From a virus, in the IMG/VR virus record IMGVR_UViG_3300025168_000280, positions 1-35,525 of that record: 35,525 bases of DNA. One strand, given 5' to 3'. Positions 1-35,525 of the stretch are shown here, one piece after another. Under the pieces are notes generated by a model, which searched no databases, was not told the DNA's origin, and saw only the letters and a program-made list of their open reading frames with translations. Within the stretch, counting starts at the first letter, position 1. Every line of letters starts with the position of its first letter. The translations under genes and the position numbers were made by a program.

Positions 1-149
1 CCTCCTGCGACAGCGGCTCGGTTGCTACCGTCTCCACCAACCACTGAGCTGCCGTCAGGGCAACACGGTCCCCCTTCCGACGGTTCAGCACATCCTCGAG
101 CACCGCGAGAGCCTGGGGGACCAAGGCCTTCAGACCTGGTGCCAGCTCG
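1..149. repeat. Left copy of 149-bp terminal direct repeat
   Basis: These 149 bases are identical to 35377-35525 except at position 23 (T here, C at 35399). The simplest reading is a circular or circularly permuted genome whose assembly overlaps itself; a true direct terminal repeat of T7 size is the alternative. The mismatch falls in the third position of an Ala codon of the minus-strand gene crossing the join (GCA versus GCG), so it is synonymous and looks like population variation. Confidence 0.95.
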
Positions 150-3697: not shown

Positions 3698-6001
3698 ATG
3701 AACATGCCCGCACGACAAGCAGACCAGCTGCCTGCAGACATCGACCAGCTTGTGTACGAGCTGCTGTGGCCTCGCCCTCCTGACGACATGATGTACGTCG
3801 GGAAGGTGTTGCCTGGTGGTGACTACCTGAGCACGGGGCAGTTCCCTCGAGCCGTCATTGGTCCCTCGGGTGGTGGTCGCACCGTCGACAACTGCGCCCG
3901 GGTCACATCGCTGATGTGGGATGCGGACCTCGTCACCCTGTACGAGGCGCTGCTTGTGGCTCGTCGTCGCCCTGTGCCCAGCCGTAGGCAGCAGTTGAAG
4001 GCTGCGCTGTGGAGGCTGCCGACGGACCACATCACGAAGCTCAAGGAGGTGCTGCTACAACAGCTGGTGCCGGTCTGGTCTGACGTGATGGGGATGGAGC
4101 CGACGGCGGTGTTCGACTCGGGGTGGGGAGTACACATCCACCTCGCTGTCGACCCGTCGGTTGGTGGCAACGTGGTCGAGCTGGCCGGGCTGCATGCTGA
4201 CGTGACTCGTCGAATGAACGAGCGTGTGGCTGGCGTGGCTCGGGAGCTCCGTCCGTCGCTGCGTGTGCCGACCTTGTTCGACCGGCTGACCGTTGGTGCG
4301 CAGCTGGCCCGGATACCGGGGAGCATCAACAAGAAGTGCAGCCACATCCCGATGACTGTGGTGGTACTGGACTGCAACCCTGACTCAGCTCTCGATGCTG
4401 GAGAGATGGAGCGGCTCGGTGCCATGACCGGAATGTCCGACGACATGTTCGCCGACTTCGGCAATGCGCCTGAGCCTGGTGGGTACGAGCACGAGGTCGG
4501 CCCTCCGCACGTCGGCCCCCCTCCCCCCACCGAGACCGACTTCACCCAGCAGTACATCGACGGTCGGACCTGGGCTGACATTGCCTACGCCCTGTCCCCT
4601 GGTGAGCGGGTCAAGGTGCGGTGTCCCTTTGGTGGCACGAGTATCGGCAGCGGCTTCTTCGCCCGGGAGATTGATGGGCGCACCCGCTACTACAGCCACC
4701 CTCTGCAGCGCACGTTCTGGGACTGCATGGTGCGGCAGGCTCCCCGCTCGCAGCGCACGGTACGCCTTGCCATGCTGCCCCGAAAGGGGGACAAGCCGCC
4801 TCGCCCTCAGAATACGCTGAGCAACCTGCGCCTGATGGTGGCGAACGACCCGGCCTTCGACCTGTGGTTGGACGACTTCACGGGTGAGGTGATGGACGGG
4901 GGCGAGACGCTGCCTGAGTCGTGGTGGTTGGACACCCGCATCCACATGGAGTCGGCGTACAACTGGACCTGGTCAGCCAGCCGTGAGGTGCTGATGTCGA
5001 CGGCGATGGCGGTGGCTACGGACAACCGACGCAACCGTCCGCGCGAGTGGCTGCTGTCGCTGCGGTGGGACAAGCAGCCGAGGCTGAAGACGTGGATGCA
5101 CAAGGCGCTGGGCGCTGCAGCAGGCAACGGGCTGGTCACGCAGTACAGCTTGCGCTGGCCCATCGCCCTCGTCGCTCGCATGCTCGACCCTGGGGTGAAG
5201 CAGGACTCCATGCTTGTGCTGCAGGGGCCACAGGGCAGCGGCAAAAGCCAAGCGCTCGAGGCGTGGGTCGACACCTCAGTCCAGCCGGGCATGTTTGTGG
5301 ACACGCGCATCCGCCTGGACGACAAGGATGCGATGCTCGTGCTGCGCCGTGCTTGGCTGTACGAAGACGCCGAACTGCTGGCTCATGGTGGGGCGGGTGC
5401 GTCTGCGCGCAAGGCTTTCCTGAGCTCGAGGGTGGACACCTTCCGCCCGCCCTACGGACGGACTGTCATCCGCGCGCCTCGGCACTGCGTGGTCTGTGGC
5501 TCGACGAACGACGCAGTGTTCTTGCACGACGTCACTGGCAGCCGCAGGTACTGGGTTGTGCCGTCTGGCAAGATCAACCTGCGATGGTTGAGGGACAACC
5601 GCGACCAGCTGCTGGCTGAGGCGGTCTACCTGTACCGGAAGGGTGAGCCCTGGTGGTTGTCGCGCAGCTGGGAGGAGAAGCAGTCGCAGCTGAACAAGCG
5701 CTTCCTGTACACCTCGAGCTACGCAACGGCGGCCACTGCCCTCTTCGAGAAGGCGCCTGCGGGTGCAGCATTCACGCTGGAGTCTTGCCTGCAGGTACTG
5801 GGTGCAGGCGTGGGTCGGGACTCGAAGATGGTGACGAGTGCGCTCGAGCTGGCCGGCTTCAGTCGAGCTCGCACGGGTACGTGGCGTGGCTGGGCGAAGC
5901 CTGTCGACGAGCGCATGCCTTGGCCTGACCGTCGTGCGGCAGGCAGCATTGCTGTCCGTCAGTTGGCGGACATCTGGGGCGAGATGTTTGCGACGGGATG
6001 A
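3698..6001 (+). CDS. AEP-type primase fused to VapE-like helicase
   Basis: A 767-aa replication protein with GGAGGA five bases before its ATG. The N-terminal third resembles archaeo-eukaryotic primase/primase-polymerase domains: FDSGWGVHIHLAVD at about residues 138-151 carries the characteristic SGxGxHxH strand, and LARIPGSINKK (about 206-216) is also typical of this class. The C-terminal third is a VapE/virulence-associated-E P-loop ATPase: Walker A GPQGSGKS (about 510-517), an acidic WLYEDAEL motif (about 553-561), RPPYGR (about 582-587), GSTND sensor (about 602-606) and TGSRRYWVV (about 613-621). Together they would prime and unwind phage DNA. No DNA polymerase is visible elsewhere, so elongation is probably left to the host, or partly done by the AEP domain. 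Confidence 0.85.
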   Translation: MNMPARQADQLPADIDQLVYELLWPRPPDDMMYVGKVLPGGDYLSTGQFPRAVIGPSGGGRTVDNCARVTSLMWDADLVTLYEALLVARRRPVPSRRQQLKAALWRLPTDHITKLKEVLLQQLVPVWSDVMGMEPTAVFDSGWGVHIHLAVDPSVGGNVVELAGLHADVTRRMNERVAGVARELRPSLRVPTLFDRLTVGAQLARIPGSINKKCSHIPMTVVVLDCNPDSALDAGEMERLGAMTGMSDDMFADFGNAPEPGGYEHEVGPPHVGPPPPTETDFTQQYIDGRTWADIAYALSPGERVKVRCPFGGTSIGSGFFAREIDGRTRYYSHPLQRTFWDCMVRQAPRSQRTVRLAMLPRKGDKPPRPQNTLSNLRLMVANDPAFDLWLDDFTGEVMDGGETLPESWWLDTRIHMESAYNWTWSASREVLMSTAMAVATDNRRNRPREWLLSLRWDKQPRLKTWMHKALGAAAGNGLVTQYSLRWPIALVARMLDPGVKQDSMLVLQGPQGSGKSQALEAWVDTSVQPGMFVDTRIRLDDKDAMLVLRRAWLYEDAELLAHGGAGASARKAFLSSRVDTFRPPYGRTVIRAPRHCVVCGSTNDAVFLHDVTGSRRYWVVPSGKINLRWLRDNRDQLLAEAVYLYRKGEPWWLSRSWEEKQSQLNKRFLYTSSYATAATALFEKAPAGAAFTLESCLQVLGAGVGRDSKMVTSALELAGFSRARTGTWRGWAKPVDERMPWPDRRAAGSIAVRQLADIWGEMFATG
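3982..3994 (+). repeat. Intragenic fourth copy of CCGTAGGCAGCAG
   Basis: Thirteen bases identical to the core of the three repeats at 2744-2840, located inside the primase-helicase reading frame. A 13-base chance match in a 35-kb genome is unlikely unless codon bias helps. It may be a distal operator or a second binding site for a replication protein. Confidence 0.55.
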
Positions 6002-6007
6002 ATCCCC

Positions 6008-6036
6008 TTGCGCTACCTATCACTGCTGACTATGCT
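6008..6036 (+). promoter_or_regulatory. Putative internal early promoter before the ERF gene
   Basis: TTGCGC (6008-6013) is 17 bases from TATGCT (6031-6036). The spacer contains ATCACTGCT at 6019-6027, three bases before the -10, exactly as in the promoter at 2778-2806. It would start a transcript for the ERF-RuvC-nuclease-SSB group inside the 59-bp gap after the primase-helicase gene. Confidence 0.6.
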
Positions 6037-6060
6037 TGCAGAGCAACAACGGAGCACAAC

Positions 6061-6765
6061 ATGACCGACCCGTTCACCCACACCGACTTGTCTGAGCTGG
6101 CCCCTGCCCTTGCCCTTGCGCAGCTGCGCATGGTGCCTGCGGTCTACGACAAGACCAACCCTCACTTCCGCTCGAAGTACACGAGCCTTGCCTCGGTGCT
6201 CGGCAGCATCCTGCCCGCGCTCAACGAGCAGGGCATCGCCCTACTTCAGCACCCCGGCTTTGAATCGGCCACAGGCCTGGTGTCCGTCACCACTATGCTC
6301 ATGCACAAGAGTGGCCAGTACATGTCGAGCACCTGCTCGCTGCCCTTGGGTGGACGCAAGGATGGCCACGCACTGAAGAGTGCCTCGACCTACCTGCGTC
6401 GCATCGGTGCCATCTCCATCTGCGGTCTGCCGGAAGAGGACGACGACGGCAACCGTGCGTCGGCTCGACGGGAACCTGCCCGGCGTCAACCTGCCCCTGC
6501 GCAGGAGCCGTTGTCCGACACACCTGTGACTGCCGCAGACGTCGAGCTGTACCGCGGCATGGTGAACGGCATCGGCCTCGATGCATCTGTCGTCGCCTCA
6601 TTCTTCGAGGCACACGGGCGTGAGTCAGCAGCAGACCTGACTGCCAACCACCTCGACGCCCGCCTGCAGTGGGTCAAGTCTGACGCAGCGGGGGACCACA
6701 TCAAGCGATGGGCAGCAGACAACAACATGCCCGCAGCTGTCCCTGACGTGGGTGATGGGCAGTGA
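6061..6765 (+). CDS. erf: ERF-family single-strand annealing protein
   Basis: The 234-aa product begins at ATG 6061, behind GGAGC with six-base spacing; the in-frame ATG at 5998 lies before the promoter and overlaps the previous stop. Residues about 10-125 carry the ERF signature: an N-terminal helix (LALAQLRMV), DKTNPHFRSKYTSLASVL, a LPALNEQGIALLQ helix and VTTMLMHKSGQYM, followed by ALKSASTYLRRI. After an Arg/Pro-rich linker (about 140-160) a helical tail resembles the C-terminal module of other phage annealing proteins. ERF proteins form rings on single-stranded DNA and promote annealing. Here it pairs with the RecE-like nuclease and SSB encoded downstream. Confidence 0.9.
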   Translation: MTDPFTHTDLSELAPALALAQLRMVPAVYDKTNPHFRSKYTSLASVLGSILPALNEQGIALLQHPGFESATGLVSVTTMLMHKSGQYMSSTCSLPLGGRKDGHALKSASTYLRRIGAISICGLPEEDDDGNRASARREPARRQPAPAQEPLSDTPVTAADVELYRGMVNGIGLDASVVASFFEAHGRESAADLTANHLDARLQWVKSDAAGDHIKRWAADNNMPAAVPDVGDGQ

Positions 6766-6962: not shown

Positions 6963-7528
6963 GCGCCCTGCGCTACGTCATAGGCATTGACCCTGGCCCT
7001 ACCTCGAGCGGGCTGGTGGTCTGCTCGGTGCGCGGTCCAGCCGACGCCGACATGACAGTCAACCAGACCTACAAGGCAGCCAGCTGGAAGGACGTGCGAG
7101 CGGAGCTCGAGAACCGAGGCATCGACATTCGCACTGGTCACTGCTTGGTGGCCCTCGAGCGGGTGCAGCCGGGGGTGTCGAGCTGGTCACTGACCAAGAC
7201 CTCGGAGATATGCGGCCGAGTCATGCAGATGCACGACGTCATTGGCTGCGGGATGTCGCAGGTCGTACCGCTCCAGCTCCTGACCCGGTCGACCATCCTG
7301 TCCCTCATGCGGGTCGGTCGGTCGTCGCAGCGAGACAAGATGGTGAGGGCTCGCCTCATCGAGATGTTTGGTGGCGACCGAGCCACCGCTATTGGAACCG
7401 TGAAGAGGCCTGGTCCCCTGCACGGTGTCGCTTCCCACGCATGGGCTGCACTGGCTGCTGCTGTCGCTGCCCGCGTTCACCTGAGGGAGCAGCGCGAGCT
7501 GCACCTCGCACACGAGAGAGCACGATGA
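6959..7528 (+). CDS. RuvC-like Holliday junction resolvase
   Basis: A 189-aa RNase H-fold nuclease. Strand one carries IGIDPGPTSSGL with the metal-binding Asp11. LVALERVQ gives Glu67, the second acidic ligand. RSTILSLMRVGRSSQRDKMVRARLIEMFG fits the helical part of RuvC-like phage resolvases. The final motif reads SHAWAALAAAV with His160, but the acidic residue usually found three positions later is Ala163, so the fourth metal ligand of classical RuvC is missing or replaced. The role would be cutting branched recombination and replication intermediates before packaging. ATGA overlaps at both ends show translational coupling. Confidence 0.85.
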   Translation: MSALRYVIGIDPGPTSSGLVVCSVRGPADADMTVNQTYKAASWKDVRAELENRGIDIRTGHCLVALERVQPGVSSWSLTKTSEICGRVMQMHDVIGCGMSQVVPLQLLTRSTILSLMRVGRSSQRDKMVRARLIEMFGGDRATAIGTVKRPGPLHGVASHAWAALAAAVAARVHLREQRELHLAHERAR

Positions 7529-8460
7529 CTGACATCAATCCCATGACACTGCCTGAGGTGGTCGAGTTCGACACCGACAAGGCGTACCGGTCAGACCCTG
7601 GCTACAACTGGTCGATGATCAAGACCATGGTCGCAGGCCTGCGCGGCGCCACGTCTGCAGCCACCATGCGCCACCGCCTTGACGTCGAGAAGCCTGCTGC
7701 CACACCAGCCATGGTGTTCGGCACACTGGTCCACACGGTGGTCCTTGAGCCCGACAAAGCGGACGACATCTACTACGTCATGGACGGTAGCAAGCGGACC
7801 AAGGCGTGGAAGGAAGCAGCGAAAGAGGCTGCCGAAGAGGGCAAGGAGCTGGTTCATGTCGACGACATGGCGGTCGCCATCGCTATGCGAGACGCCGTCA
7901 ACAGCAACCCTGCTTGGCGGAAGCTGATGACCGAGTACGCCCGCGGGTTGCGTTCGGAGGCGGGACCGCCCCGGTTCGAGGTGGGCATGGCCTGCAACGA
8001 CAGCGAGTACAACCTGCGCCTGCGTGGCAAGTACGACGTGCTGGTGGACGACGAGCTCATGGTCGACTTGAAGACCACCTCGTCCACCCTGGACTACGGA
8101 CAGCTTCAGCGTGATGTGCTGAACTTCGGCTACCACGCACAGCTGGCGCTGTACTGGCGCATCCTCCGACAGGTGCGCCCCGAGCTCACGCACTACCCCT
8201 CGCGCATGGCGTGGCTCTTCGTCTCGAAGGCGGCACCGCACGAGACCGTCCTGCTGCACGCGGACGACGAGGTCGTTGAGCATGCTGAAGCCATCGTGGA
8301 CGAGCTGCTGACTGCGCTCGCCTACTCCGACCGCCACAACTACTGGCCCCCGCGGCACCCAAGTGGAGAGACTGTGATGTCTCTCCCGCACTGGGCACGC
8401 AAGGCTCTCGAGTCGTCGGCTGACGACACTTCCCCCGCCGCCCTCCCGGCCGGCATCTGA
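7525..8460 (+). CDS. RecE-like PD-(D/E)XK exonuclease
   Basis: A 311-aa product; start at ATG 7525, which overlaps the RuvC stop in ATGA. The frame stays open upstream but that part lies inside RuvC. It has the motifs of the phage/exodeoxyribonuclease VIII-like family: FGTLVHTVVLEP (His70), LRGKYDVLVDDELMVDLKTT with Asp171 and the Asp181-x-Lys183 core, and GYHAQLALY giving Gln206-x3-Tyr210. An acidic-basic helical insertion (about 88-110) is also typical. The enzyme would resect double-stranded ends to give single strands for the ERF protein. Next to ERF and SSB it completes a two-component annealing recombination system. Confidence 0.88.
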   Translation: MTDINPMTLPEVVEFDTDKAYRSDPGYNWSMIKTMVAGLRGATSAATMRHRLDVEKPAATPAMVFGTLVHTVVLEPDKADDIYYVMDGSKRTKAWKEAAKEAAEEGKELVHVDDMAVAIAMRDAVNSNPAWRKLMTEYARGLRSEAGPPRFEVGMACNDSEYNLRLRGKYDVLVDDELMVDLKTTSSTLDYGQLQRDVLNFGYHAQLALYWRILRQVRPELTHYPSRMAWLFVSKAAPHETVLLHADDEVVEHAEAIVDELLTALAYSDRHNYWPPRHPSGETVMSLPHWARKALESSADDTSPAALPAGI

Positions 8461-8472
8461 CAGGAGCACAAC

Positions 8473-8868
8473 ATGTCTGTTGCACACATGACCATCGTCA
8501 CTCGCTTGGGCCGAGACCCCGAGCTCCGCACCACCTCGGCTGGAAAGTCGGTCTGTACCCTCAGCCTCCCGACCGACACAGGCTGGGGCGACAACAAGAA
8601 GACCACCTGGTGGAGGGCCACCATCTGGGGCAAGCGTGCGGAGGCTGCAGCCAAGCACCTGCGAAAGGGCTCCTGGGTCTGCGTCCAGGGCAAGGCTGGT
8701 GTCGAAGAGTGGACGTCCCGTGAGAACGAGAAGCGGTCCACACCCGTTATCGAGGTAAACGAGTGGGACTTCGTCGGACCCAAGCAGTCGATTGACTCGG
8801 ACTTTGTCGAGAGAAAGGACTTGGATGGGAAGACCTACAACAGCGATGCACCCGACATCCCGTTCTAG
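8473..8868 (+). CDS. ssb: Single-stranded DNA-binding protein
   Basis: The 131-aa product follows an AGGAGCACAAC leader that closely matches the one before the ERF gene. The OB-fold is recognisable: MTIVTRLGRDPELRTTSAGKSVCTLSLPTD, then TTWWRATIWGKRAEAAAKHLRKGSWVCVQGK, typical of bacterial and phage SSB. The acidic tail ends DAPDIPF, close to the DDDIPF tip that recruits host partners. It protects single strands during replication and recombination. Its TAG overlaps the convergent endolysin stop within CTAG. Confidence 0.95.
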   Translation: MSVAHMTIVTRLGRDPELRTTSAGKSVCTLSLPTDTGWGDNKKTTWWRATIWGKRAEAAAKHLRKGSWVCVQGKAGVEEWTSRENEKRSTPVIEVNEWDFVGPKQSIDSDFVERKDLDGKTYNSDAPDIPF

Positions 8869-11796: not shown

Positions 11797-14700
11797 CTAC
11801 TGCGTCGCGAAGTAGTCTCTGCGGAACGAGCGGCTGTACACATCTTCCGGCGACTTGACTCGCACAGGCGTGCCTGCTCCAACCAAGTACATCAGCCACG
11901 GCACCGTACCGCGATACTTCGGGTCGTAGCCGTCTGGCCCGTAGCCGGCGGCGATGGCAGTCTTGGTGGTGTCCTGCGTGGCGCGGCCGATCATCAGCTG
12001 GGTAGCGAGGAACGTGAACGCCTGGAAGTTGCGGAAGCCGTTCTGCTCGAACACGTACTGGCGGTTCCGGAACTCCGAAGCTCCAGGCCTGCGCTCGTCG
12101 CGGTCGTCCAGCGGACCCCCGATGTCCTTGATGTCGAACGCATCGACCGCCCACTCCCACACATCAGGGCCTGCGTTCTGGAACGCCACAGCCCAGGTGT
12201 CAGGCACCAGTCGACCCCGGCTCGAGGGTCTGGTGTTCGCAGCCAGCGCCAACACCATCTGAATCTCAGGGCGAATCTGCTCTTCGAGGACTGCGTCGAC
12301 CACCCTGCCAACGATGTCCCCAGCCGCACCCTCCTTGCCAGCGAGCTGCGCCATCGAGCCCATAGCAAAGAAGCTCAGGTCGATGAGGTCCGCCATGCCA
12401 CCAGGGAACACGCCCTGCGGACCAGCGACCGCCGTGCCGCGGTAGTCGAAGTCGGGGCCAGGGATAGCAAACTGCCTGATGCGGTCGTAGTCGCTGCCGT
12501 AGGTCCACGTCCCAGCAGCCTTCTGCATCTGCATCTGCACACGCAGAACACGAAGCCAATCGGACTGACCTCGAGCACCAGCCATCAGTATCTCGCGCAT
12601 GCTGGCCATACGGAAGGTGGCGAAGAGGGCGTACCGGTTGATGCTCTGCTTGACGACGTCAGGCACCGCGCCGTAGTCGAGCACCGAAGCTCGAGCGAGC
12701 TCAGCTGCCTGCATCGGACTCATGCCGTCACGTATGGCTGACGCGAACGTGCCTCGCCGGAACACGGTGTCCGTCCACGTCGCAAGCTGCATCGAGATGG
12801 AGGTGCGCGACGGGTCGAACAAGGACGACTGAAGCTTGCGCGCCATCTTCCACCACGGCGCCGAGTCGAGCTCCGCGTCGCTGATGACCCCGATGTCTCG
12901 CTGGATGGTGCGCAACATATCAGCCGCCTGGTCGACATCTCCGCGGGACATGTAGTAGTTGTATGCGCCGGCCATCTCCTCAAACTCGCGAACCGTCCAC
13001 TCCTTGCCGTACACGTCCGTGAACAGGAAGTCGTCAGGCTTGCGAGGAGACACCGTGTCGACGAGGGCGCGCCCCCACTCGGACACCGTCTTGTTCTTGA
13101 CTGCGCTGGCTACATCTCCAACAGCCATCTTCGCTGACATCGCCAGCGACTTGGCCGCCTGCCGATAGCCCAACGTGCCGACCATCATCATCGGCGCGGT
13201 CAGCAAGTTGAGCCCGACGTACCGCACAATGGGAATGCCCGGGATGATCCACAGCGGACCACCGAGCACGATGCCCGCACTGAGCAGACCGTAGGCCGCA
13301 GCCTGTCGCCCGTATACAGCGACGTCGCTCAGTGACCGAAGGATGAACTTCGCTGGCCCAGCCAGACCACCCTCGGCAAGCAGTGTCTGTGAGTGAATGT
13401 TCTGCAGGGTCGACAGCAGGGAGCCGTTGGCGGCACCCGACTTCATCTCGGTGAGCACATCCTCCATGCCTGGCAGCACAGGGTACGCGATGTCAGGGTC
13501 GGTGGGAATGCGGAGCACTGTGGCCATCACCTGGTCAAGCGCTCCCGGAGTAGCAAACGAAGAGAAGCCCCACGTCCGCATGGTAGCTCGAGCCTGGTTG
13601 CCGACGAACGACGCAAGCCCAGCCTCGATGCCCCTCTCGGCCCCTTCAGCGATGAGCTTTTGAATGGCGCCGTTTGCCATGCCCCGGCTCTTGAGCTCCC
13701 GCACAGCATCCCGCATGAAGATGCTGACAGGGTTCTTGAGGTCGTGGTTTTGCTGCGCCTCAAGCACAACAATCTGTGCCTTGGCAAACTGCACATCGCG
13801 CGAACCGCTGGTCCCACCTACAGGATTCAAACGAACGCTTGGATACAGTGTGCCGTCGGCTTGCATGGCGTCGAAGACAGACTCGACCATGTTGAGCTGC
13901 TCTTCGGACGACATGTGCTGCATGCGCTTGCGCGCCCACGACAGCATCGGCTCAAGCACAGGGTCCGCCAAGCCAGTGGCGTGAGGCTCAGCCCCTGTCG
14001 CTCGCAACGTCTCGGGGGAGAAGACCTTGTTCATCGCGCGAACAAAAGCCTCCTCGAGCTCCGTCGGGAACTCTTCTCCAAGCGCTGTCCTCAAGCGATC
14101 CAGCACAGACGTGACCGCATGGTTGGGGCCGCCGTAGCGCAATGCCATCTGGCTCACCCCAAACTCAGTGTCCGCGGTTGCGGTTGGGGTGAGCGCTGTC
14201 CGCAGCTCGGGGTTGCGGCGGAACAGATCATCCCAAATCTGGGTCACAGCAAAGCGCCGGTCTGCTGCCAACTGCCACGACTGCTGAGTCTCGAGGATGG
14301 CATCAGCAAACAGCTTGCCCTTCTTGAACAAGCTTGCAAGGCTTATGCGAGCCGCACCGCGCCGACCCAAAGTCTCAGGCATGTCGTCGCGCAGCCGGGC
14401 AATGACCTTCTGGATGTTGCCGTGCGTCGGCTCGAGGATGGCTGCCTTCGCCATCTCGTCAAGCAGGTTTAGAATCTCTTTCGACGATGGAGTCATTCGA
14501 GCAGACAGCTGCCGAGCGCGCTTGACTGCATCGACACCCTCCTGACCAGCCTGGATGTACTTGTCGATGTGGGCGTCAACCCTCTTGATTACCGCCTCGG
14601 TCTTGTCGACGTTGGCAAGCATGCTCTGCGACGTGAAAAAGTCCTGCATGAGACGCGACCACTGCGCCCGGTACTCACCACGCCTGACCAGCTTGCGCAC

Positions 14701-17700
14701 GTTGTCGAGGAACTGGGCCTGCGCACCCTCGTCCATCTGCCGCACGCTCTCCAGCGCTGCACCAATACTCACACCACCGCGAGCTCCACCGTCTTGGTAC
14801 AGCAACAGCGCTGCAACCTCCGCTTCCGACGGAGGCCTACGCATAGGCTCCTTGATGGCCGCTTGCTCAATCATCTCTATCTGCTTGCGGACCCGCTCAA
14901 AGAAGCGGTCTTCGACCAGCTGCCCAACGCGAGCCCACCGTGTAGTGCTGGCCACATCAAGGGCTTCCTTGCCCGCGTCCCCGAAGGGGACACCTTCACG
15001 CCGCAGTTGAGCAGTCAGCTGCATGATCTCATCGTTGTACTGGCGCTGCACGACTCCCATCGCATTGGACACCTGGTCGAGCCCCTGCCGAAACGTCGAC
15101 GGCATGGTGGCCGATGTAGACTGAAGCCACATGCGCTGGGCTGCTGAGTCCCACTTCGCCTGCACCCTGCGCGAGGCACGCACAATGGCCTCTCCTGCCT
15201 CCGCTGCGCCCAAGCGAGACACCACCCCCCCTGCTCCCCTGGTCGCCGACGTAGCAGCCAGCAGGGAGGCGCTGACGGTGTCCATCACAGGAAGCACCAC
15301 CTGCTGCATGAACGCCTTGCGGCTTTGGCCCCCTGGGCCGACCGCCCTACCAGCCTGCATGGATGTGCGAGTCTCGAAGGCAGCCTCAGCTACGTCACGG
15401 TCTGGAATAATGCGACGCCACACGAGCTCCCTGGCAGCATCCTCCAAGTAGGCATGCTGTGTGAGCGTCACCTTCTTGTCTTCAAACAACGCTCGCTCGA
15501 GCTCTACCCGTTGGGGTCGACGGGGGTCGACCACGTTCAGCATGTCGAGCACATCGTCGGCACTGTCGAGTACGTCGTACATGCCCTCCTCGGCAGCCGG
15601 GTACGCTTGATAGATCGCACGCTGCCCCTCTCCAACGCGGCGCATGTTTTCTGCTGTCGCGAGCTCTCGAGGCACCATCAATCTGTCGGTGACGAAGCGC
15701 ATGTCTCGAGGAACGTGGGCGTCGACCATCTCTTCGACAGTTCGTTGGAAAGCCCGACCCAGAGCGGACCCATACTGCACCGCGGCAGGGGCCTTGGCAA
15801 GGTCGCGAGCCGCTTCACTCGTCTCGGTGGGTAAACGGAAGAAGCCCTTCAGCGGACTGTTGGCCTTCATCCCACGAGACGCCCCGAGCGCACTGGTCTC
15901 GTCAGCCAAGCTCAGCATCATTCGCACGCGCTGGTTCGAAGTGCGTACCGCAGCAGATCCGGCGGTGTTGGCTGCGTCCCGGAACAAGTCGGCAACCTCG
16001 TCGGCACCGCGAGCCTTCTTTGATGCGTCAAGGGCGTCAGCGTACAAGCTGTCTGCGTTGAGCACACGCCTCGCTTGGTCAGGACCGAGCAGGTCTTCGA
16101 CCACCTTCATCAGGTTGCCGCCGTCGGGACGAAGCGCCTCTCGCACGGTGGAGGACTCAAGACCCAAGCGCCATTCAAGGATGGCTTCTTCGAGTGCTAC
16201 TCGGTGAGCAAGCGTGAGCTCGTCAGCCTCAGACGCGACAGCCCAAGACTGAGCGCCCGCGCGGTTTAGGATGTGGCGCCCAACGTCCGACGTTTCGGCC
16301 AGCCCAATGATGTGGTCATAGGTGAAGGGCGCGTCGTCGAGCAGGGCAGCACGCATGGTAAAGGGGGCGCTGAGTTGGCGCTGGATATTCGCTGCCACTG
16401 CTCGAGCTGGCTCACCCTTGTGCAGCAGGATGTCGACCACACTGGCCGTCTCCATGCCATCGCCCACCAGCTGCGACAGCTCTCGGTGAGCCATGTGCGC
16501 CTGATACCAAGCACGAGGGCTGGTGGCCCGACTGACCATTTCGCCCGTCTCACTGAGCACCTTCGCACCCTTGGCGACGCGCGCCCCGAACACACCAGCT
16601 TTGGCCAAGCTGGACGCGGCCGACGTCACATTCGCGCCCGGCACAATGGGGAGGGCTATGCCACCCATCAACGCTGGGATGAAAGACAAATACTGCCGGT
16701 CGCCCAGGTGGTCTGTGTAGCTGGGGATGCTGTTGACCTCGTCGAGCAAGCTACGCCCGCGGGCATTGTTCATGGCGACGTCAGAGAAGAAGCCCCCCGT
16801 GCTGGCGGCGACACGCTTACCCGCCTCGTCGAACGACGTTGGTGCGTCTCGGTCGATCGGCTTGAACGCAAGCGGAACAATGTCGCCAGTGTTGATGCGC
16901 TCGAATTTGCCCTTGCGGTACAGCTCCACCGGGTCGAAAGCAAAGTTGAAAGAAGGGGCATACGCCCTCATTGCAACGTCACCCACAAACCGCTGCGCCT
17001 TGTCCAGGGTGCTGACCTCGACTCCAGTCGCATCAGCCACCGCCTTGCGACTGCGGTCCACCAGGTACGCGATGTTGTCCGCGAGGTCGTCAGGGTTCTG
17101 GAGGTCGCCCTGCTCATCCACCTCGTAGAACAGCGGCATTGTGTCGAAGATGAACTCGCCCGAAGTGGCTTCAGCAATACCGAGCGCCCCTCGCATGAAC
17201 GCCGCAAGCGGGGTCTCTACAATCTGCCTGCGCTCCTCGTCGATCTCGCTCAGCTTCCCGTCGAACCACGAGTCGAGGTCGGCTTCAGCTTCTTCGGGCG
17301 TCATGCCTGCAGCCACGTTCTGCTGGTACTTGACCTTCCGAGCAGCTTGGAGCTCCGCAATACGTCGGTCGAAGTCGTCGCCCTCGTACAGGACCTGCCG
17401 ACCAAACTGCTGCAGCAGGAGCTCGCGACCGCTGGCCTTGCGAGGCCGCCCGTCTTCACCCACGATGTAGCCGTCGGTGTTCAACAAGATGTCGCTGATA
17501 CCGAAGCTACCGATGTCGCGACCCTCGGGGGTGACTGAGCGCTCAAGCAACTGCCGGCGCAGGTCAGCTTGGTCTTTCTGTTTCGCTGCCTCAGGCAGGG
17601 TGGAGACCAGCTGTTGGCGCTTCAGCTCCCTGGCCCGCTCCTCGTAGCCCAGCACAATCTCAGCTTGAGACAGGGGTATCGTCAGACCCAGGGTGTCGAC

Positions 17701-17907
17701 CGGTTCACCTGCCGGGAGCGTCGGCTCAGGCAGCGGCTCCTCGACCACCACCTCAGGAGCAGGCGGCATCCCGAGCAGGAACAGCTCCCGCTCGGCCAGA
17801 GCGTCGCGCTCCAACGCCTCGGACTGCAGACGACGGAGCTCCTCCTCCGGGATCATGGGGAGGCCCTCGAGCGACACCGGAGGGGGAAAGTCGAAGGGTG
17901 TACTCAT
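11797..17907 (-). CDS. Giant internal virion (ejection) protein, 2036 aa
   Basis: The largest gene, third in the run of genes that matches the T7 gp14-gp15-gp16 order, so a gp16-like DNA-ejection role is inferred. It begins with a Pro/Glu-rich segment (about 1-75) and continues mostly as charged alpha helices. Hydrophobic stretches occur near residues 405-425 (SFIPALMGGIALPIVPG) and at about 1530-1590 (AAAYGLLSAGIVLGGPLWIIPG, then VGLNLLTAPMMMVGTLGY), possibly for insertion into the host envelope. The C-terminal part has ASVLDYGAVPDVV and SINRYALFATF, a pattern seen in large phage virion proteins. No lytic transglycosylase or RNA polymerase motif was found by eye. At 2036 aa it is longer than T7 gp16 (1318 aa). 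Confidence 0.75.
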   Translation of the reverse strand: MSTPFDFPPPVSLEGLPMIPEEELRRLQSEALERDALAERELFLLGMPPAPEVVVEEPLPEPTLPAGEPVDTLGLTIPLSQAEIVLGYEERARELKRQQLVSTLPEAAKQKDQADLRRQLLERSVTPEGRDIGSFGISDILLNTDGYIVGEDGRPRKASGRELLLQQFGRQVLYEGDDFDRRIAELQAARKVKYQQNVAAGMTPEEAEADLDSWFDGKLSEIDEERRQIVETPLAAFMRGALGIAEATSGEFIFDTMPLFYEVDEQGDLQNPDDLADNIAYLVDRSRKAVADATGVEVSTLDKAQRFVGDVAMRAYAPSFNFAFDPVELYRKGKFERINTGDIVPLAFKPIDRDAPTSFDEAGKRVAASTGGFFSDVAMNNARGRSLLDEVNSIPSYTDHLGDRQYLSFIPALMGGIALPIVPGANVTSAASSLAKAGVFGARVAKGAKVLSETGEMVSRATSPRAWYQAHMAHRELSQLVGDGMETASVVDILLHKGEPARAVAANIQRQLSAPFTMRAALLDDAPFTYDHIIGLAETSDVGRHILNRAGAQSWAVASEADELTLAHRVALEEAILEWRLGLESSTVREALRPDGGNLMKVVEDLLGPDQARRVLNADSLYADALDASKKARGADEVADLFRDAANTAGSAAVRTSNQRVRMMLSLADETSALGASRGMKANSPLKGFFRLPTETSEAARDLAKAPAAVQYGSALGRAFQRTVEEMVDAHVPRDMRFVTDRLMVPRELATAENMRRVGEGQRAIYQAYPAAEEGMYDVLDSADDVLDMLNVVDPRRPQRVELERALFEDKKVTLTQHAYLEDAARELVWRRIIPDRDVAEAAFETRTSMQAGRAVGPGGQSRKAFMQQVVLPVMDTVSASLLAATSATRGAGGVVSRLGAAEAGEAIVRASRRVQAKWDSAAQRMWLQSTSATMPSTFRQGLDQVSNAMGVVQRQYNDEIMQLTAQLRREGVPFGDAGKEALDVASTTRWARVGQLVEDRFFERVRKQIEMIEQAAIKEPMRRPPSEAEVAALLLYQDGGARGGVSIGAALESVRQMDEGAQAQFLDNVRKLVRRGEYRAQWSRLMQDFFTSQSMLANVDKTEAVIKRVDAHIDKYIQAGQEGVDAVKRARQLSARMTPSSKEILNLLDEMAKAAILEPTHGNIQKVIARLRDDMPETLGRRGAARISLASLFKKGKLFADAILETQQSWQLAADRRFAVTQIWDDLFRRNPELRTALTPTATADTEFGVSQMALRYGGPNHAVTSVLDRLRTALGEEFPTELEEAFVRAMNKVFSPETLRATGAEPHATGLADPVLEPMLSWARKRMQHMSSEEQLNMVESVFDAMQADGTLYPSVRLNPVGGTSGSRDVQFAKAQIVVLEAQQNHDLKNPVSIFMRDAVRELKSRGMANGAIQKLIAEGAERGIEAGLASFVGNQARATMRTWGFSSFATPGALDQVMATVLRIPTDPDIAYPVLPGMEDVLTEMKSGAANGSLLSTLQNIHSQTLLAEGGLAGPAKFILRSLSDVAVYGRQAAAYGLLSAGIVLGGPLWIIPGIPIVRYVGLNLLTAPMMMVGTLGYRQAAKSLAMSAKMAVGDVASAVKNKTVSEWGRALVDTVSPRKPDDFLFTDVYGKEWTVREFEEMAGAYNYYMSRGDVDQAADMLRTIQRDIGVISDAELDSAPWWKMARKLQSSLFDPSRTSISMQLATWTDTVFRRGTFASAIRDGMSPMQAAELARASVLDYGAVPDVVKQSINRYALFATFRMASMREILMAGARGQSDWLRVLRVQMQMQKAAGTWTYGSDYDRIRQFAIPGPDFDYRGTAVAGPQGVFPGGMADLIDLSFFAMGSMAQLAGKEGAAGDIVGRVVDAVLEEQIRPEIQMVLALAANTRPSSRGRLVPDTWAVAFQNAGPDVWEWAVDAFDIKDIGGPLDDRDERRPGASEFRNRQYVFEQNGFRNFQAFTFLATQLMIGRATQDTTKTAIAAGYGPDGYDPKYRGTVPWLMYLVGAGTPVRVKSPEDVYSRSFRRDYFATQ

Positions 17908-30401: not shown

Positions 30402-32122
30402 TAGACAACGCCCCCTGGAGGCAAGGCCTCTTTGACCCGGGCTGGTCCGCCGCGGGCTTGAGACAACATCTCAGGCGGGGTCTCCCCAGGAGCAGCCGCA
30501 CCCGCCGCTTGGGCCAACATCTCCTCCTCCATCTTCTGACGGTTGGCAGATGCTGCCGCAACCATGTCGGCGGGGAGCTCGAAGGCGCGCTGAAGCAGGT
30601 TCAGAAGGAAGTCTTCGGGAACACCGAGGGCTTGAAGCATCGGGGTGAGGCGCTCGAGCTCCTGCTTGCGGGCCGCTTCTGACATCGGGGTGTTGCCGCT
30701 GTCCTCTGCGTACAAGTCGAAGTCTCCAGTCACGTCTTCAGCGGTCAGCGCTACAATCTTGCCGTCCAGCTTCACCATGTCTGCGCCGTCGTCGACCAAA
30801 ACACCGACCATCGCGAGGTACGCGAGCACCGTATCCGTGATTGCTTGGTCGCGTGACCTGGCCATCCGGCCGATTTCCGATGCCGTGTAAGCAGCTAGTG
30901 CCTGAATCTCTGTCGCTGTCGCCTGCGTGGCCTGACCGCGCGTAAACGGCGCCATGACCGAGCCGCGGCTGAAGTCTTCGTCGACCACATCTGCGTAGCG
31001 CTGGAGCTCCGCGGGCACAGGCGTGTTCGGAATGGGGATCACCCCGTCACTGATGGACTGGTTCGTTGAGACGTCTACCTCAATGACCTCCCCGTCCTGG
31101 CCCTGCGCCATTTTGCTCTTCGCTTCCTCGTCGAAGAAGCCCCGGCGGGTAATCCACTGCCGAGCTGCGCGACGAACACCCTGCGCCTGGAAGGTTCGCA
31201 TGTGATTCACTTCGCGAAGCTGGTCGTACACCCGGCGCAGACCGCTGAAGCCGCGCATGGGGCAGTCGGGCTCCCGTGAAAGGTACAGGGGGATCAACGG
31301 CAGCCTGTATTCACCGCTTGCAGTCATATACGGGATGTCGTCAAAGAGCTGCTCGGACACATCCTCTTCGTCTACGCCGGTCTCAATCTTGACGCCGGCA
31401 TGCAACCACGCATCGCGCTTCCAGTCAGCAGACCAGACCCACATCTTGCCGAAGCGGAGATCGAACACCTCGACCACCTCCACGAAAGAATCTGCCGCCT
31501 TGATGGCGTGGCCACTGTTGGGCGGATTCTCGGGCTCAGCCGTGTCCGCGTCGACGTTGTCGATGTACAACGACCACGTTCGGGGCGCGTACTTCTTCGA
31601 GCCGTACCTTCTTTTGGCTTCAGCCAACGGCATCAGGTAGCGGTGGCCGCAGTAGCGTTGCGAAGACCAACTCGAGGCGGTCTCGTCCACGATGATGTCC
31701 CACGGCTGGACCGCTGACAGCTCGGGACGGTTCAGAACCTGCTTCGCGTGGCCGATGCTGAGCTTCAAGCCTGCGAACGGGTAGATGATGGACAGGCGAA
31801 GAGCGTCCTCAATGGAGTCCCTTTGCTTGCGGAGCCACCGGTTGGCTGCAAGCTCCGCAATACTTGCATCACCCTTGCCGTGGATGTCGTCTTTGACCAC
31901 GACCGAAGGGTCGCGAACGAAGAGGCTGGCGACGTAGCTCTCCACGAGCTCGTATGCCCGGCTCGTTTCGATGAGCAGGTCTTCGTCGTAGTCCTGCGCA
32001 CGCTTCCAGAAGCGCATGAGGTAGGCGTGACGCAGCCTGCGCATCTCCTGACGGCGACCGTCCCAGTATGCCTGGTGGCGGTCGAAGATGTCGGCAAACT
32101 CGGAGGGGGTGAGGGGCTTCAT
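30401..32122 (-). CDS. Portal protein, 573 aa
   Basis: ATG 32122-32120 overlaps the TerL stop in ATGA; the longer upstream frame lies inside TerL. The N-terminus (PSEFADIFDRHQAYWDGRR, then YLMRFWKRAQDYDEDLLIETSRAYELVESYVASLFVRDP) is typical for podovirus portals. The middle alternates strands and helices (WDIIVDETASSW, FVEVVEVFDLRFGKMWVW), and AQATATEIQALAAYTASEIGRMARSRDQA matches the crown/stem helix of portals (the QAT-TEI motif). The C-terminus is a Met/Ala/Glu-rich helix. Twelve copies would form the DNA channel and bind TerL. Confidence 0.85.
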   Translation of the reverse strand: MKPLTPSEFADIFDRHQAYWDGRRQEMRRLRHAYLMRFWKRAQDYDEDLLIETSRAYELVESYVASLFVRDPSVVVKDDIHGKGDASIAELAANRWLRKQRDSIEDALRLSIIYPFAGLKLSIGHAKQVLNRPELSAVQPWDIIVDETASSWSSQRYCGHRYLMPLAEAKRRYGSKKYAPRTWSLYIDNVDADTAEPENPPNSGHAIKAADSFVEVVEVFDLRFGKMWVWSADWKRDAWLHAGVKIETGVDEEDVSEQLFDDIPYMTASGEYRLPLIPLYLSREPDCPMRGFSGLRRVYDQLREVNHMRTFQAQGVRRAARQWITRRGFFDEEAKSKMAQGQDGEVIEVDVSTNQSISDGVIPIPNTPVPAELQRYADVVDEDFSRGSVMAPFTRGQATQATATEIQALAAYTASEIGRMARSRDQAITDTVLAYLAMVGVLVDDGADMVKLDGKIVALTAEDVTGDFDLYAEDSGNTPMSEAARKQELERLTPMLQALGVPEDFLLNLLQRAFELPADMVAAASANRQKMEEEMLAQAAGAAAPGETPPEMLSQARGGPARVKEALPPGGVV

Positions 32123-33660
32123 CTGTTGACGCTCCAGGGCAGCGGGCTCTTCCGGTTCCGCGCAGCGCGTATTCGCGCCTTGACCCTGTCGATGTAGCTC
32201 TCGACAGAGCGCCGACGCAAGCCGTTCGGAGCATCTCGCAAGCAACGATAGGCGAGAGCGCAGCCCATGGCAAGGTCGTCGTGCAGTCCCGAGGGGGCTT
32301 CGGGTGTGGTCCGACGTACCTCGAGCGAGCGGAGCTCCTGCAGCGTGGACTGGTCGAGCTGCCGCAGGATGCCACTCTCCACGACCTCCCGCAAGCCGTC
32401 GTAGATGTCCAGCTTGGACTGGGTCGACGTGTACCAGTGGTCCCCGTTCTCGTTCGCCCACAGGTTCGGGTACTTCAAGTGCTCCATCTCGCGCAAGAAG
32501 GAGTAGCCGTGGTTGTTCGACTCCGCGAGGATGACCGCGTGGTTGTAGGCGTGACCGACCTGAGCGCAGTGAGCCGCCCACGCGTGCGGCGCCTTGTGGT
32601 TGCAGCGCTCGATGTAGACCGGCTGCCGGGTCGCGACGTTGAGCACAACGATGGTGCTGTAGTCCTGACCGATACCGCCGCTGATGTCGACGCCCGCAAC
32701 GTACTCGGAGTCCTCTTCGGGCTCTTCGAAGCAGCGCTCGGACTCGTCAAACCAGACCTGGGTGATCTCGTCAAGCGACTCCGCGGTGAACCACGTCGAC
32801 TGCCTCGAGGCAAAAGCGTCCGCCAGGCACCCGGGGTACTCCCGCCGGAAGCGGGCAAGCCCGAGCGTCGCTATCTGCCGACGCCGCCAGTGCAGCTGGT
32901 GGTTGTCGACCCCGTACAGCTCGACCAGCTTCTGCTCTTCTACCGTCGGAGCGAAGTCGTCAGGGATGTCTGAGTCCCGATAGGCCTTGTGCTCGTGCCA
33001 CCAGTACGTGTAGACCGTCCACCCGTTCTCGGGAGCTCCCTCGATGAGCCGGTGGAACTCGTCGCCCGGAGTGTTCGCGGTGGACTCGATGATGATGGGA
33101 CCGTCTCCGACCGTCGACACGACCTGAGACAGCACCTCGCCCGGGTCCTTGTAGAAGGCGAACTCCGACAAGTGCGCTCCCGTAAACTCGAACGACCGAG
33201 TACCCCCCGAGCCCCCCGTCGTGAAGCTCGAGACACCCGCACCCGTGTCTTCAAACTCCGTGTCTGTTGCGCTGTCGAGCGACAACGGGCGCTTGAGCAT
33301 GTGAGGCAGACCCCGCAACCAACGACGGTCCATGCGGCGCAACGACTTGGCTGACCGGTCGTGGAAGGACAGGACCGAGAACACCTGGGGGTCAGGCGTC
33401 GTGTACGCCCGGTGGAACTGCCACGCCCGAGTCGCCGTCGAGATGCCGACCTGGCGTGCCTTGACGACAATCACCCGGCTGCTCCGGTCGAGCAGCGACC
33501 ACAACCGCAGCTGCGCGTCGTTCGGCTCGAAGGGCACGTACTTCTGCTTCTGCTTGTGCTTGATCTGCAGCAGACGGCAGAAAGCCTGGCGGTCTGCCAA
33601 CAGGCGAGCGAGCTCGTACCGGTTGTCCTTCGGGACCGACGACGGGACGAAGACGGTCAC
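32119..33660 (-). CDS. terL: Large terminase subunit (TerL)
   Basis: The start GTG 33660-33658 is preferred since it overlaps the QueC stop as GTGA; ATG 33684 is an alternative. The 513-aa product has the ATPase motifs VVKARQVGISTA (Walker A region, about residues 66-77), LSEFAFY (Walker B-like, about 164-170) and IESTANTPG (coupling motif, about 191-199). The nuclease domain shows VDISGGIGQD (Asp325), ILAESN (Glu380) and GLHDDLAMGCALA (Asp461, Asp462), the three acidic clusters of the RNase H-like nuclease. It packages DNA into the procapsid and cuts concatemers. The gene follows QueC without a gap. Confidence 0.95.
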   Translation of the reverse strand: MTVFVPSSVPKDNRYELARLLADRQAFCRLLQIKHKQKQKYVPFEPNDAQLRLWSLLDRSSRVIVVKARQVGISTATRAWQFHRAYTTPDPQVFSVLSFHDRSAKSLRRMDRRWLRGLPHMLKRPLSLDSATDTEFEDTGAGVSSFTTGGSGGTRSFEFTGAHLSEFAFYKDPGEVLSQVVSTVGDGPIIIESTANTPGDEFHRLIEGAPENGWTVYTYWWHEHKAYRDSDIPDDFAPTVEEQKLVELYGVDNHQLHWRRRQIATLGLARFRREYPGCLADAFASRQSTWFTAESLDEITQVWFDESERCFEEPEEDSEYVAGVDISGGIGQDYSTIVVLNVATRQPVYIERCNHKAPHAWAAHCAQVGHAYNHAVILAESNNHGYSFLREMEHLKYPNLWANENGDHWYTSTQSKLDIYDGLREVVESGILRQLDQSTLQELRSLEVRRTTPEAPSGLHDDLAMGCALAYRCLRDAPNGLRRRSVESYIDRVKARIRAARNRKSPLPWSVNR

Positions 33661-34235
33661 TTGCCTTGACCGCACGAACCGCATGAACCGCACGGCTTTC
33701 CGTCCCGCGGGTGGTAGCAACTCCAAGGCTCCGAAGGGGGGAGCCCAAACCACACGGCTGCAGCCTTCACCCTCTCACGAGACATTGATGCGAGCGGGTA
33801 GACGACTTCAACACCAAACACTTCAGTCAGCTTCGAGACGGCTTGTAGGTATCGGGGTCTACAATCCTCGTACCCGTCGACGTCTTCCAAAGTCGCCCCA
33901 ATCGCAACACGACTCAATCCCATTGATGCCGCAAGGTTTGCAGCCATCGACAACATCACAAGGTTCCTAGCCGGGACCACCCTCGGACCCGGGGTGCCTT
34001 CCCCAGTGAGCTGGTCCGCTCGAAGAGGGAGGTCGACGTCCAAAACAGGAGCAGGTTCTCCGTCAAGGTGCAGTCGCTGCCGAACGGAAATAACTGCTTG
34101 GCGCTCGTATGACTGGGCAGGGTGCGGGTAGACGAAGTGAACCGCACCACCAAAACGGTCAGCCTCACGCATGCACTGGACAAGCACAATGGAGTCGAGG
34201 CCGCCCGACAAGCACACCAGAGTGTCTCTACGCAT
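33657..34235 (-). CDS. queC: QueC-like 7-cyano-7-deazaguanine (preQ0) synthase
   Basis: A 192-aa product from ATG 34235-34233 with GGAGGGG upstream; the longer frame lies inside DpdA. LVCLSGGLDSIVL gives the ATP-pyrophosphatase P-loop (residues 10-15). VVPARN, then IGATLEDVDGYEDCRPRYL are the QueC substrate motifs (compare VPGRN and GYPDCRPEF). The end, SCYHP followed by CGSCGSC, supplies four zinc cysteines. QueC uses ATP and ammonia to convert 7-carboxy-7-deazaguanine to preQ0, via the amide. No FolE, QueD or QueE is encoded, so the carboxy precursor must come from the host. Overlap with the DpdA-like gene by eight bases couples the two. Confidence 0.93.
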   Translation of the reverse strand: MRRDTLVCLSGGLDSIVLVQCMREADRFGGAVHFVYPHPAQSYERQAVISVRQRLHLDGEPAPVLDVDLPLRADQLTGEGTPGPRVVPARNLVMLSMAANLAASMGLSRVAIGATLEDVDGYEDCRPRYLQAVSKLTEVFGVEVVYPLASMSRERVKAAAVWFGLPPSEPWSCYHPRDGKPCGSCGSCGQGK

Positions 34236-34845
34236 GAACCCCTCCAAGCAATGAAACCTGCCGCCGAGCGCAGTCAAGCATAGGCAGCGTCTTGGAAAAC
34301 CTTGTGGCCGAGCTACCGTCAAAACTGTCAGCCTGCGCGTCCTTGCAAATTGCAATGCGGCGCGCAGTATTGACTCGCAAAACGTGCAGGTACGCTGACT
34401 GTTTTTGGGCCAACTGGCCCCATTGACGGCAGGTAGTTTCCTTCCACTCGGTGGAACCCCCGACCGCAATGCCGATTTCGGGACCGACAATCGACTCAAC
34501 GTCGCTCGGGCTGATACCGTCTTGAACCGCGAGAAGCATAGGGCACACGCCCTGCAGCCGCTTTGCCCAACTCATCGACATCTTGAGCGACGAAAGCCCG
34601 CCCGCAACAACGTCAGGAAGGATGAGCCAGTCGGCGTCGGAACCTCCCCAAGCAACTGCCCGCTCGAATGCCGGAACGTCAAACTGCTCGCCTCGCTGAT
34701 GGGCTGTCCAAGCACCGTTGTCCAAAGCATATTGGAACCCTTCGTGGCGAAGAACCCCACGAGCGGAAACAAGAAGCCTCCACCCCGCGCGGCGCAGAGC
34801 ATCGAGGTTCCTTTTCGTGCCAGTCCTGCTGGCGTAGGCGATCAC
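34228..34845 (-). CDS. dpdA: DpdA-like DNA 7-deazaguanine transglycosylase
   Basis: A 205-aa TGT-fold protein starting at GTG 34845, overlapping the 43-aa gene as GTGA. The motifs follow tRNA-guanine transglycosylase order: ALDNGAW with Asp42 (like the D-x-GG base-binding motif), LPDVV with Asp78, GIAVGGS (about 125-131, like the GGLAVGE loop), HVLRVNT, and ADSFDGSSATR, where Asp176 lines up with the nucleophile of the FDCVxPTR motif. The zinc site and C-terminal extension of tRNA enzymes are absent and the size is that of short phage DpdA proteins. DpdA exchanges guanine in DNA for preQ0 or a derivative. Linked QueC makes this reading strong; the exact base is not predictable. Confidence 0.88.
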   Translation of the reverse strand: MIAYASRTGTKRNLDALRRAGWRLLVSARGVLRHEGFQYALDNGAWTAHQRGEQFDVPAFERAVAWGGSDADWLILPDVVAGGLSSLKMSMSWAKRLQGVCPMLLAVQDGISPSDVESIVGPEIGIAVGGSTEWKETTCRQWGQLAQKQSAYLHVLRVNTARRIAICKDAQADSFDGSSATRFSKTLPMLDCARRQVSLLGGVHA

Positions 34846-34973
34846 CCCACAACCCCGTACTCAGCGGCGCAGGACCACCAACCGTCTTCGACACCCTTGC
34901 GGTGCCCGGCGTCGTAGCTGCAGCGCCCGATGGCGAGGGTGAGGATGAGAAGGGCAACGTGTGAGCGGGTCAT
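34842..34973 (-). CDS. 43-aa membrane-anchored small protein
   Basis: ATG 34973-34971 overlaps the previous stop as ATGA, and its TGA overlaps the DpdA start as GTGA, so it is fixed in the operon. The N-terminus MTRSHVALLILTLAIGRC is a short signal-like hydrophobic segment ending in Cys18. Arg precedes the cysteine, so it is not a proper lipobox. The rest (SYDAGHRKGVEDGWWSCAAEYG) is small and polar with a second cysteine. The first residues resemble a membrane anchor. Function unknown. Confidence 0.6.
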   Translation of the reverse strand: MTRSHVALLILTLAIGRCSYDAGHRKGVEDGWWSCAAEYGVVG

Positions 34974-35281
34974 GAGGCACCTCCGTCGGTGTGCCCCGCT
35001 TCCCATGACCCCAGCCAGCGGGTGTCCTCGAGGCTGTCCATCAGCCGGTGGGTGGTCTCATCGCTGATGTCGGCAGACAGCCAGTTGCCAACCTCCACAG
35101 ACCAGTTCGCGAGACCATGAAGCAGGGTGGTCGAGCCGAGTGCTCCCGAACTGATGCAGACCAAGAAGTCCCCTGACGACCCTGTCAGAAAGCTATGCAC
35201 CCTGCCGCGTCGCGAACGGCCATGGTCTATGACCATCATGCCGGGCAGCCACGGGCCTTTGTGCTCTACGTAGTCGCTCAT
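34970..35281 (-). CDS. Hypothetical protein, 103 aa
   Basis: ATG 35281-35279 with GAGGAG six bases upstream; it ends in an ATGA overlap. The product begins MSDYVEHKGPWLPGMMVIDHGRSRRGRVHSFLTG, an SH3-like beta start (the PGMMVID-RGRV pattern is typical of small beta barrels), and ends with a helical, acidic region (SADISDETTHRLMDSLEDTRWLGSWE). Between the junction protein and DpdA; no family is recognised. A role connected to the DNA modification is possible only from its position. Confidence 0.65.
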   Translation of the reverse strand: MSDYVEHKGPWLPGMMVIDHGRSRRGRVHSFLTGSSGDFLVCISSGALGSTTLLHGLANWSVEVGNWLSADISDETTHRLMDSLEDTRWLGSWEAGHTDGGAS

Positions 35282-35317: not shown

Positions 35318-35525
35318 TTACTGTCCCCCTCGAAGCATCTCGAGGACCACACCCATCTCCTCTCCCGCAGGGGAATCCTCCTGCGACAGCGGCTCGGTCG
35401 CTACCGTCTCCACCAACCACTGAGCTGCCGTCAGGGCAACACGGTCCCCCTTCCGACGGTTCAGCACATCCTCGAGCACCGCGAGAGCCTGGGGGACCAA
35501 GGCCTTCAGACCTGGTGCCAGCTCG
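35318..35525 (-). CDS. Junction-spanning small protein, 3' part
   Basis: Continuation of the gene that starts at 229 when the contig is closed; the last 19 codons plus stop (35376-35318) are unique to this end, and 35377-35525 repeats the sequence of 1-149. The frame is open to the right edge of the window, so the piece is truncated at its 5' end here. It ends GVVLEMLRGGQ, an acidic-hydrophobic helix. A TTG (35500) or other start inside this piece should not be used: the real start is the ATG at 229. Possible small terminase; see the 5' part. Confidence 0.75.
   Translation of the reverse strand, partial: ELAPGLKALVPQALAVLEDVLNRRKGDRVALTAAQWLVETVATEPLSQEDSPAGEEMGVVLEMLRGGQ
35377..35525. repeat. 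Right copy of 149-bp terminal direct repeat
   Basis: Identical to 1-149 apart from C at 35399 (T at 23). It closes the contig into a circle of about 35,376 bp and joins the two halves of the small minus-strand gene into a single 95-codon frame. The preserved frame across the join is good evidence that the overlap is genuine. Confidence 0.95.

Follow-up and report, generated by a model that had tools for sequence, protein, structure and literature searches.

Do two overlapping genes, one for a short protein resembling tRNA-guanine transglycosylase (TGT) and phage DpdA and one for a QueC-type enzyme, serve a virus to modify its own DNA? This question is raised by a locus in the window, which is the whole stretch of 35,525 nucleotides analysed here (IMG/VR record IMGVR_UViG_3300025168_000280). 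We consider it probable that the pair is a minimal 7-deazaguanine DNA-modification cassette. It would draw on 7-carboxy-7-deazaguanine (CDG) from the host, the resulting base would be inserted into phage DNA, which would then escape restriction, and the cassette would occupy an exchangeable slot.

Table 1 Coordinates of the cassette, its neighbours and the genome ends in the window.
Feature	Position	Strand	Remarks
Direct terminal repeat, copy 1	1..149	.	148/149 identical to 35377-35525
Terminase large subunit (TerL)	32119..33660	(-)	Immediately downstream of queC; phrog_2, E 4.6e-32
GTGA overlap, queC stop/terL start	33657..33660	(-)	Seen in the sequence
QueC-superfamily enzyme, variant clade	33657..34235	(-)	192 aa; predicted amidation of CDG to 7-amido-7-deazaguanine (ADG)/preQ0
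Exchange segment	33661..34845	(-)	Holds dpdA-queC; the sister phage has one Mom-like gene instead (L191:3915-4361)
dpdA-like/queC overlap	34228..34235	(-)	8 bases
Compact TGT/DpdA-like transglycosylase	34228..34845	(-)	205 aa, GTG start; predicted 7-deazaguanine-inserting enzyme
GTGA overlap, small ORF stop/dpdA-like start	34842..34845	(-)	Left edge of the exchanged segment
Small ORF	34842..34973	(-)	43 aa, directly precedes the cassette; also present in the sister phage
Direct terminal repeat, copy 2	35377..35525	.	Sister phage (L191) continuous across the junction

Gene order and completeness of the genome

The preliminary description of this DNA had reported two minus-strand reading frames that overlap by eight bases, and both are found (Table 1). 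The ribosome site of queC, GGAGG, lies within the 3' end of the dpdA-like gene. The arrangement fits a single translationally coupled unit composed of the small ORF, dpdA, queC and terL. The cassette is probably expressed together with the packaging genes, as its position in front of terL suggests.

The window is probably a complete genome, since it ends in 149-bp terminal repeats and the contig of a sister phage reads across the junction, a judgement based on the present comparison and not on the database record. FolE, QueD and QueE/radical-SAM proteins were sought in the window and gave no match. In an apparently complete genome, this absence implies that the dpdA-queC pair would depend on CDG made by the host, and the dependence claimed in the preliminary description therefore holds. 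The same description had called the genome podovirus-type, which is left unconfirmed: the head genes match, but among the proteins scanned from the tail region there was no match to any PHROG tail family. No known phage was matched in a megablast search with 24 kb of the window. The late region contains a minus-strand ORF of 2036 aa (11797-17907) that has no PHROG match. A plus-strand block (3698-6001, 5998-6765, 7210-8460 and 8473-8868) forms a replication and recombination module with a VapE-like helicase/primase, an Erf annealing protein, a PD-(D/E)XK exonuclease and an SSB.

The short transglycosylase-like enzyme and the variant QueC

The short protein had been described as TGT-like because of Asp42, Asp78, a GIAVGG loop and a nucleophile-like Asp176. 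These motifs are present, with GIAVGG at residues 125-130, and they are conserved. Relatives were collected from viral contigs and bacterial genomes, which gave 128 distinct members. Residues N43, P77, D78, Q108, G129, G130, K135, H154, N159, D176 and G177 are invariant in all 128, and D42 is kept in 127. Conservation this close to total means that the motifs were not picked out by chance. The family match of the protein is phrog_15826 (E 1e-38), a PHROG without assigned function. DUF3151 was rejected as a candidate, as its Pfam score is below the cutoff and covers about 20 residues.

The AlphaFold (AF2) model of the short enzyme is a TIM barrel (pLDDT 91.4, pTM 0.89), the fold on which the earlier reading had been made to depend. 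Foldseek places tRNA-guanine transglycosylases among the top matches of this model (E ~5e-6), and VIA-align superposes it on the TGT of Z. mobilis with a Z of ~15 over ~201 residues. However, pyruvate kinase, another TIM barrel, gets the same Z as TGT, so the fold alone is not diagnostic and the diagnosis comes from the motif register. The hhalign E-values given here and below are from one-to-one profile comparisons, not database searches. Against the cellular TGT profile, the blind alignment (E 7e-5) puts VQDG on VQGG, aligns the GG loops and sets DSFDGSSATR opposite DMFDCVMPTR, a register that places Asp176 on the nucleophile Asp of TGT. Against phage DpdAs, which include that of CAjan, the E-value is 2.6e-5 and the DNGA/DSGA segment, the D78 segment and the GG loop are in register. 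The invariant His154 aligns with a His conserved in DpdAs (H187 of CAjan). The profile of phrog_887 (DpdA) matches the window protein with E 0.006, and its best match in the family has E 1.3e-7, over a short stretch only.

The C-terminal Cys-rich zinc-binding region of the cellular TGT consensus is absent from the 205-aa protein. PDB sequence searches with the short enzyme or its profile returned no TGT, which surfaced only by fold and one-to-one profile comparison. In all, the short enzyme shows what marks the TGT/DpdA superfamily, namely a predicted TIM barrel with the catalytic Asp pair and the base-binding Asp, Gln and Gly-Gly in register. We read it as a member of a compact DpdA-like subfamily with a predicted transglycosylase activity.

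The second protein belongs to the QueC superfamily, in line with the preliminary description. It matches Pfam QueC PF06508 with 103.2 bits against a cutoff of 22, and its closest solved structures are the QueC enzymes 2pg3 and 3bl5. It carries SGGLDS (10-15), VPARN (87-91), GYEDCRP (121-127) and the four zinc cysteines in the order C173-(x)8-C182-x2-C185-x2-C188. Thus, SGGxDS, VPxRN, YxDC and C(x)8CxxCxxC, which are features of canonical QueC (cluster 1)(PMC13329287), are all kept. The essential residues Y35, R99, Y131 and Y189 of E. coli QueC (PMC13329287) have equivalents in Y36, R90, Y122 and Y174. The canonical motif YxQxHxxE is missing and has YPHPAQSYE in its place, and the protein misses the equivalog cutoff of NCBIfam TIGR00364 (82.3 vs 150.3 bits).

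The variant motif is common to half of the distinct QueCs from such cassettes (14 of 28). All 14 variant genes lie directly downstream of the short dpdA, while most canonical ones lie upstream. In a tree, the variant QueCs stand apart from canonical QueCs, including those of CAjan, Quesadilla and Sonali, with a support of 94/84 when one odd sequence is counted in. A second tree supports the clade of the 14 variants with 98/97. Some of them neighbour QueD, alone or together with QueE (L158, L161), which makes CDG a reasonable substrate. The product of the variant enzymes could be preQ0 or the 7-amide, ADG. For the window QueC, given the changed motif, ADG is a fair guess and no more. This clade offers a way to ask whether the reaction of a QueC-type enzyme can end with the amide.

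Exchange with a Mom-like gene and linkage to supply genes

A TerL search led to a sister phage, IMGVR_UViG_3300034788_000865 (L191), whose TerL protein is 97% identical to that of the window. The two genomes are collinear, with 86-94% DNA identity across most of 36 kb. At the cassette, homology breaks off at the start codon and is regained where TerL begins. In the sister phage, a single gene (Table 1) fills the interval from the shared small ORF to TerL; its product is Mom-like (phrog_1384 with E 1.9e-36 and Pfam Mom with E 1.2e-5, the latter slightly under the cutoff) and unrelated to the dpdA/queC pair. The borders are gene-exact and the GTGA overlaps are identical. Neither DpdA nor QueC was found in the sister genome, and no Mom was found in the window. 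The modification slot is not the sole difference between the two phages, as a 103-aa ORF at 34970-35281 of the window is also absent from the sister. A portal scan yielded no relatives beyond the sister's contig and one other (L006). Mom of phage Mu modifies adenine.

Replacement of the pair by an unrelated DNA modifier supports DNA as its target. This swap, which is read directly from the two genomes, is the best evidence obtained here that the dpdA-queC pair modifies phage DNA, strong yet indirect. It suggests that phages maintain, beside the terminase, a modular slot for "DNA disguise" where a modifier of G and one of Mom type can stand in for each other. A looser second case is given by two contigs with TerLs that are 69% identical, one with dpdA-queC, a small ORF and TerL (L094) and the other with mom and TerL (L262). 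In other viral contigs (L202, L262 and L199), a Mom-like gene also adjoins that of the large terminase subunit, so modification genes may more generally be housed next to the terminase. The literature search returned no report of an exchange between deazaguanine and Mom cassettes, an absence that is weak evidence.

Linkage to genes of deazaguanine biosynthesis or transport, a mark of phage DpdAs, was found in 42 of 80 distinct viral members of the family (IMG/VR contigs), which have at least one supply gene near the short dpdA, on the same strand throughout and mostly abutting. QueC is near in 27, QueD in 14, QueE in 6 and a VUT/YhhQ-type (preQ0-transporter-type) gene in 3, and example neighbours of all four kinds were confirmed with Pfam. 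The other 38 have no supply gene inside the stretch examined. Matches of any kind to the window QueC occur in 197 of 50,697 phage records. A second DpdA, sought with the phrog_887 profile in 31 records, was found in none, which leaves the short protein as the only candidate there. The compact family thus travels with a varying piece of the supply line, QueC, QueD, QueE or a transporter, and often with none. Mycobacterium hosts are without a preQ0 pathway (PMC6884629). The pattern suggests that each phage carries only the supply piece that its hosts lack or limit.

Members of the family were also seen elsewhere. There are at least 528 viral matches and 165 matching plasmid records, 146 of them from Pseudomonas; on plasmids, the gene appears as "hypothetical protein". 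At two plasmid loci, from Pseudomonas aeruginosa plasmid pNY5530-NR1 (L264, 5833-6669) and a Burkholderia vietnamiensis plasmid (L265, 5836-6714), no QueC is annotated beside the short dpdA and DNA methyltransferases are encoded at most a few kb away. Deazaguanine may be present in plasmid DNA. BFVD entry A0A0F7L9Z1, a 499-aa protein from an uncultured marine virus, combines the fold of the short DpdA (TM 0.92, 44% identity) with about 290 further residues, and is possibly a fusion with a supply enzyme.

Proposed function, alternatives and known phage systems

In the proposed pathway, FolE, QueD and QueE of the host would make CDG. The variant QueC of the phage, with ATP and ammonia, would convert CDG to ADG and perhaps further to preQ0. 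The compact DpdA would then exchange guanine in phage DNA for the deazaguanine base, with Asp176 as the nucleophile and Asp42 as the acid/base, while Asp78, Gln108 and Gly129-130 would keep the base in place. Phage DNA modified in this way would escape restriction.

The genes might instead serve tRNA, either by raising the queuosine supply of the host or by modifying tRNA during infection. The classical substrate of TGT-family enzymes is tRNA, QueC takes free CDG, and a boosting of Q has been proposed for phages with preQ0 genes (PMC6884629). We regard this as improbable, as the short enzyme is without the Cys-rich zinc region kept by cellular TGTs, a full TGT is already present in all nine bacterial genomes checked that hold a short-DpdA homologue, and the sister phage has a Mom-like DNA modifier in the same slot. 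It is very improbable that the genes are non-functional, drifting singletons with no effect on phage DNA. Such a case is known from Mycobacterium phage Orion, which has a lone DpdA, a host without a preQ0 pathway and no deazaguanine in its DNA (PMC6884629), and many members of the short family are solo genes. Against drift, however, eleven residues are invariant over 128 divergent proteins, the overlaps and translational-coupling signals are intact, the dpdA-queC pair is conserved across otherwise different viral contigs, and the cassette is cleanly replaced by another modification gene rather than eroded.

A protein target, which we judge quite improbable, is suggested by type IV CBASS, where Cap9 (QueC-like) and Cap10 (TGT-like) make another such pair; they attach and handle 7-amido-7-deazaguanine on a protein N-terminus (PMC11996544). 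The spacing Y-x-[QH]-(x)5-E of Cap9 recurs in the window QueC, which with 192 aa also has the size of a Cap9 (PMC13329287). If the window pair acted in this manner, a phage counterpart of Cap9/Cap10 could interfere with defences, for example by blunting type IV CBASS or Qat. Whether the pair is a Cap9/Cap10 was examined using a type IV CBASS locus from a Pseudanabaena plasmid. Instead of CE(x)6CxxCxxC and H(x)4YxDC, which mark Cap9, the window protein has C-Y in its zinc motif, as in QueC, and no such His; its VPxRN is complete. The one Cap9 tested falls outside the variant QueC clade, on a long branch. Comparison of the short enzyme with the one Cap10 from this locus gave only E 0.16. Cap10 has 331 aa, a cyclase partner and a C-E zinc motif in its Cap9, in contrast to the 205 aa of the window enzyme. 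PADLOC had no match for the short enzyme, and no CD-NTase was noticed beside the pair. Identity with Cap9/Cap10 is thus disfavoured by the zinc motif, the tree, the E-value and the swap, in which the partner is a DNA modifier.

Among known phages, close counterparts of the pair are found where a DpdA accompanies a preQ0 cluster. CAjan, phages of the Rosebush type, Quesadilla and Sonali have a TGT-superfamily enzyme beside QueC, as in the window, and in CAjan deletion of dpdA abolishes DNA modification (PMC6884629). The DpdAs of phage preQ0 clusters and the window enzyme have a common catalytic register, D-x-G, D, GG, H, D. In Quesadilla, the genes dpdA-queC-queD-queE-folE lie directly upstream of the terminase genes, and the window pair likewise adjoins terL. 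Those DpdAs have ~300-385 aa and come with QueD, QueE and FolE, whereas the window enzyme has 205 aa and no upstream pathway; where modification of a phage has been measured, as in CAjan, the DpdA is of about 300 aa or longer. Unlike the window variant, the QueCs of CAjan, Quesadilla and Sonali carry the canonical YGQRHxxE.

The same compact family includes the short "DpdA-like tRNA-guanine transglycosylase" of the actinophages Aoka, Phegasus and Sonali (gp81) and gp10 of Erythrobacter phage R6L, which are 25-46% identical to the window enzyme (hhalign with Aoka, E 6e-27). Unlike the window gene, they have no QueC beside them in the regions seen. In Aoka and Phegasus, a VUT/YhhQ-like gene lies just upstream of the short dpdA, namely Aoka gene 38 (L004, 3107-3544), annotated "membrane protein", and Phegasus gene 53 (L005, 3310-3774), annotated "hypothetical". 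In Arthrobacter phage Sonali (L183), gene 81 is of the short DpdA-like kind and genes 87-91 encode a full-length DpdA, QueC, QueD, QueE and FolE; the two DpdA kinds are at 1993-2610 and 4980-5870. One phage can therefore hold both kinds, whose functions may not be the same. DpdA and QueC in phages, and their location next to terminase genes, as in Quesadilla, are known. As far as the literature searched shows, the compact family with its patchwork of partners, its variant QueC clade and the gene-exact exchange with a Mom-like gene are new.
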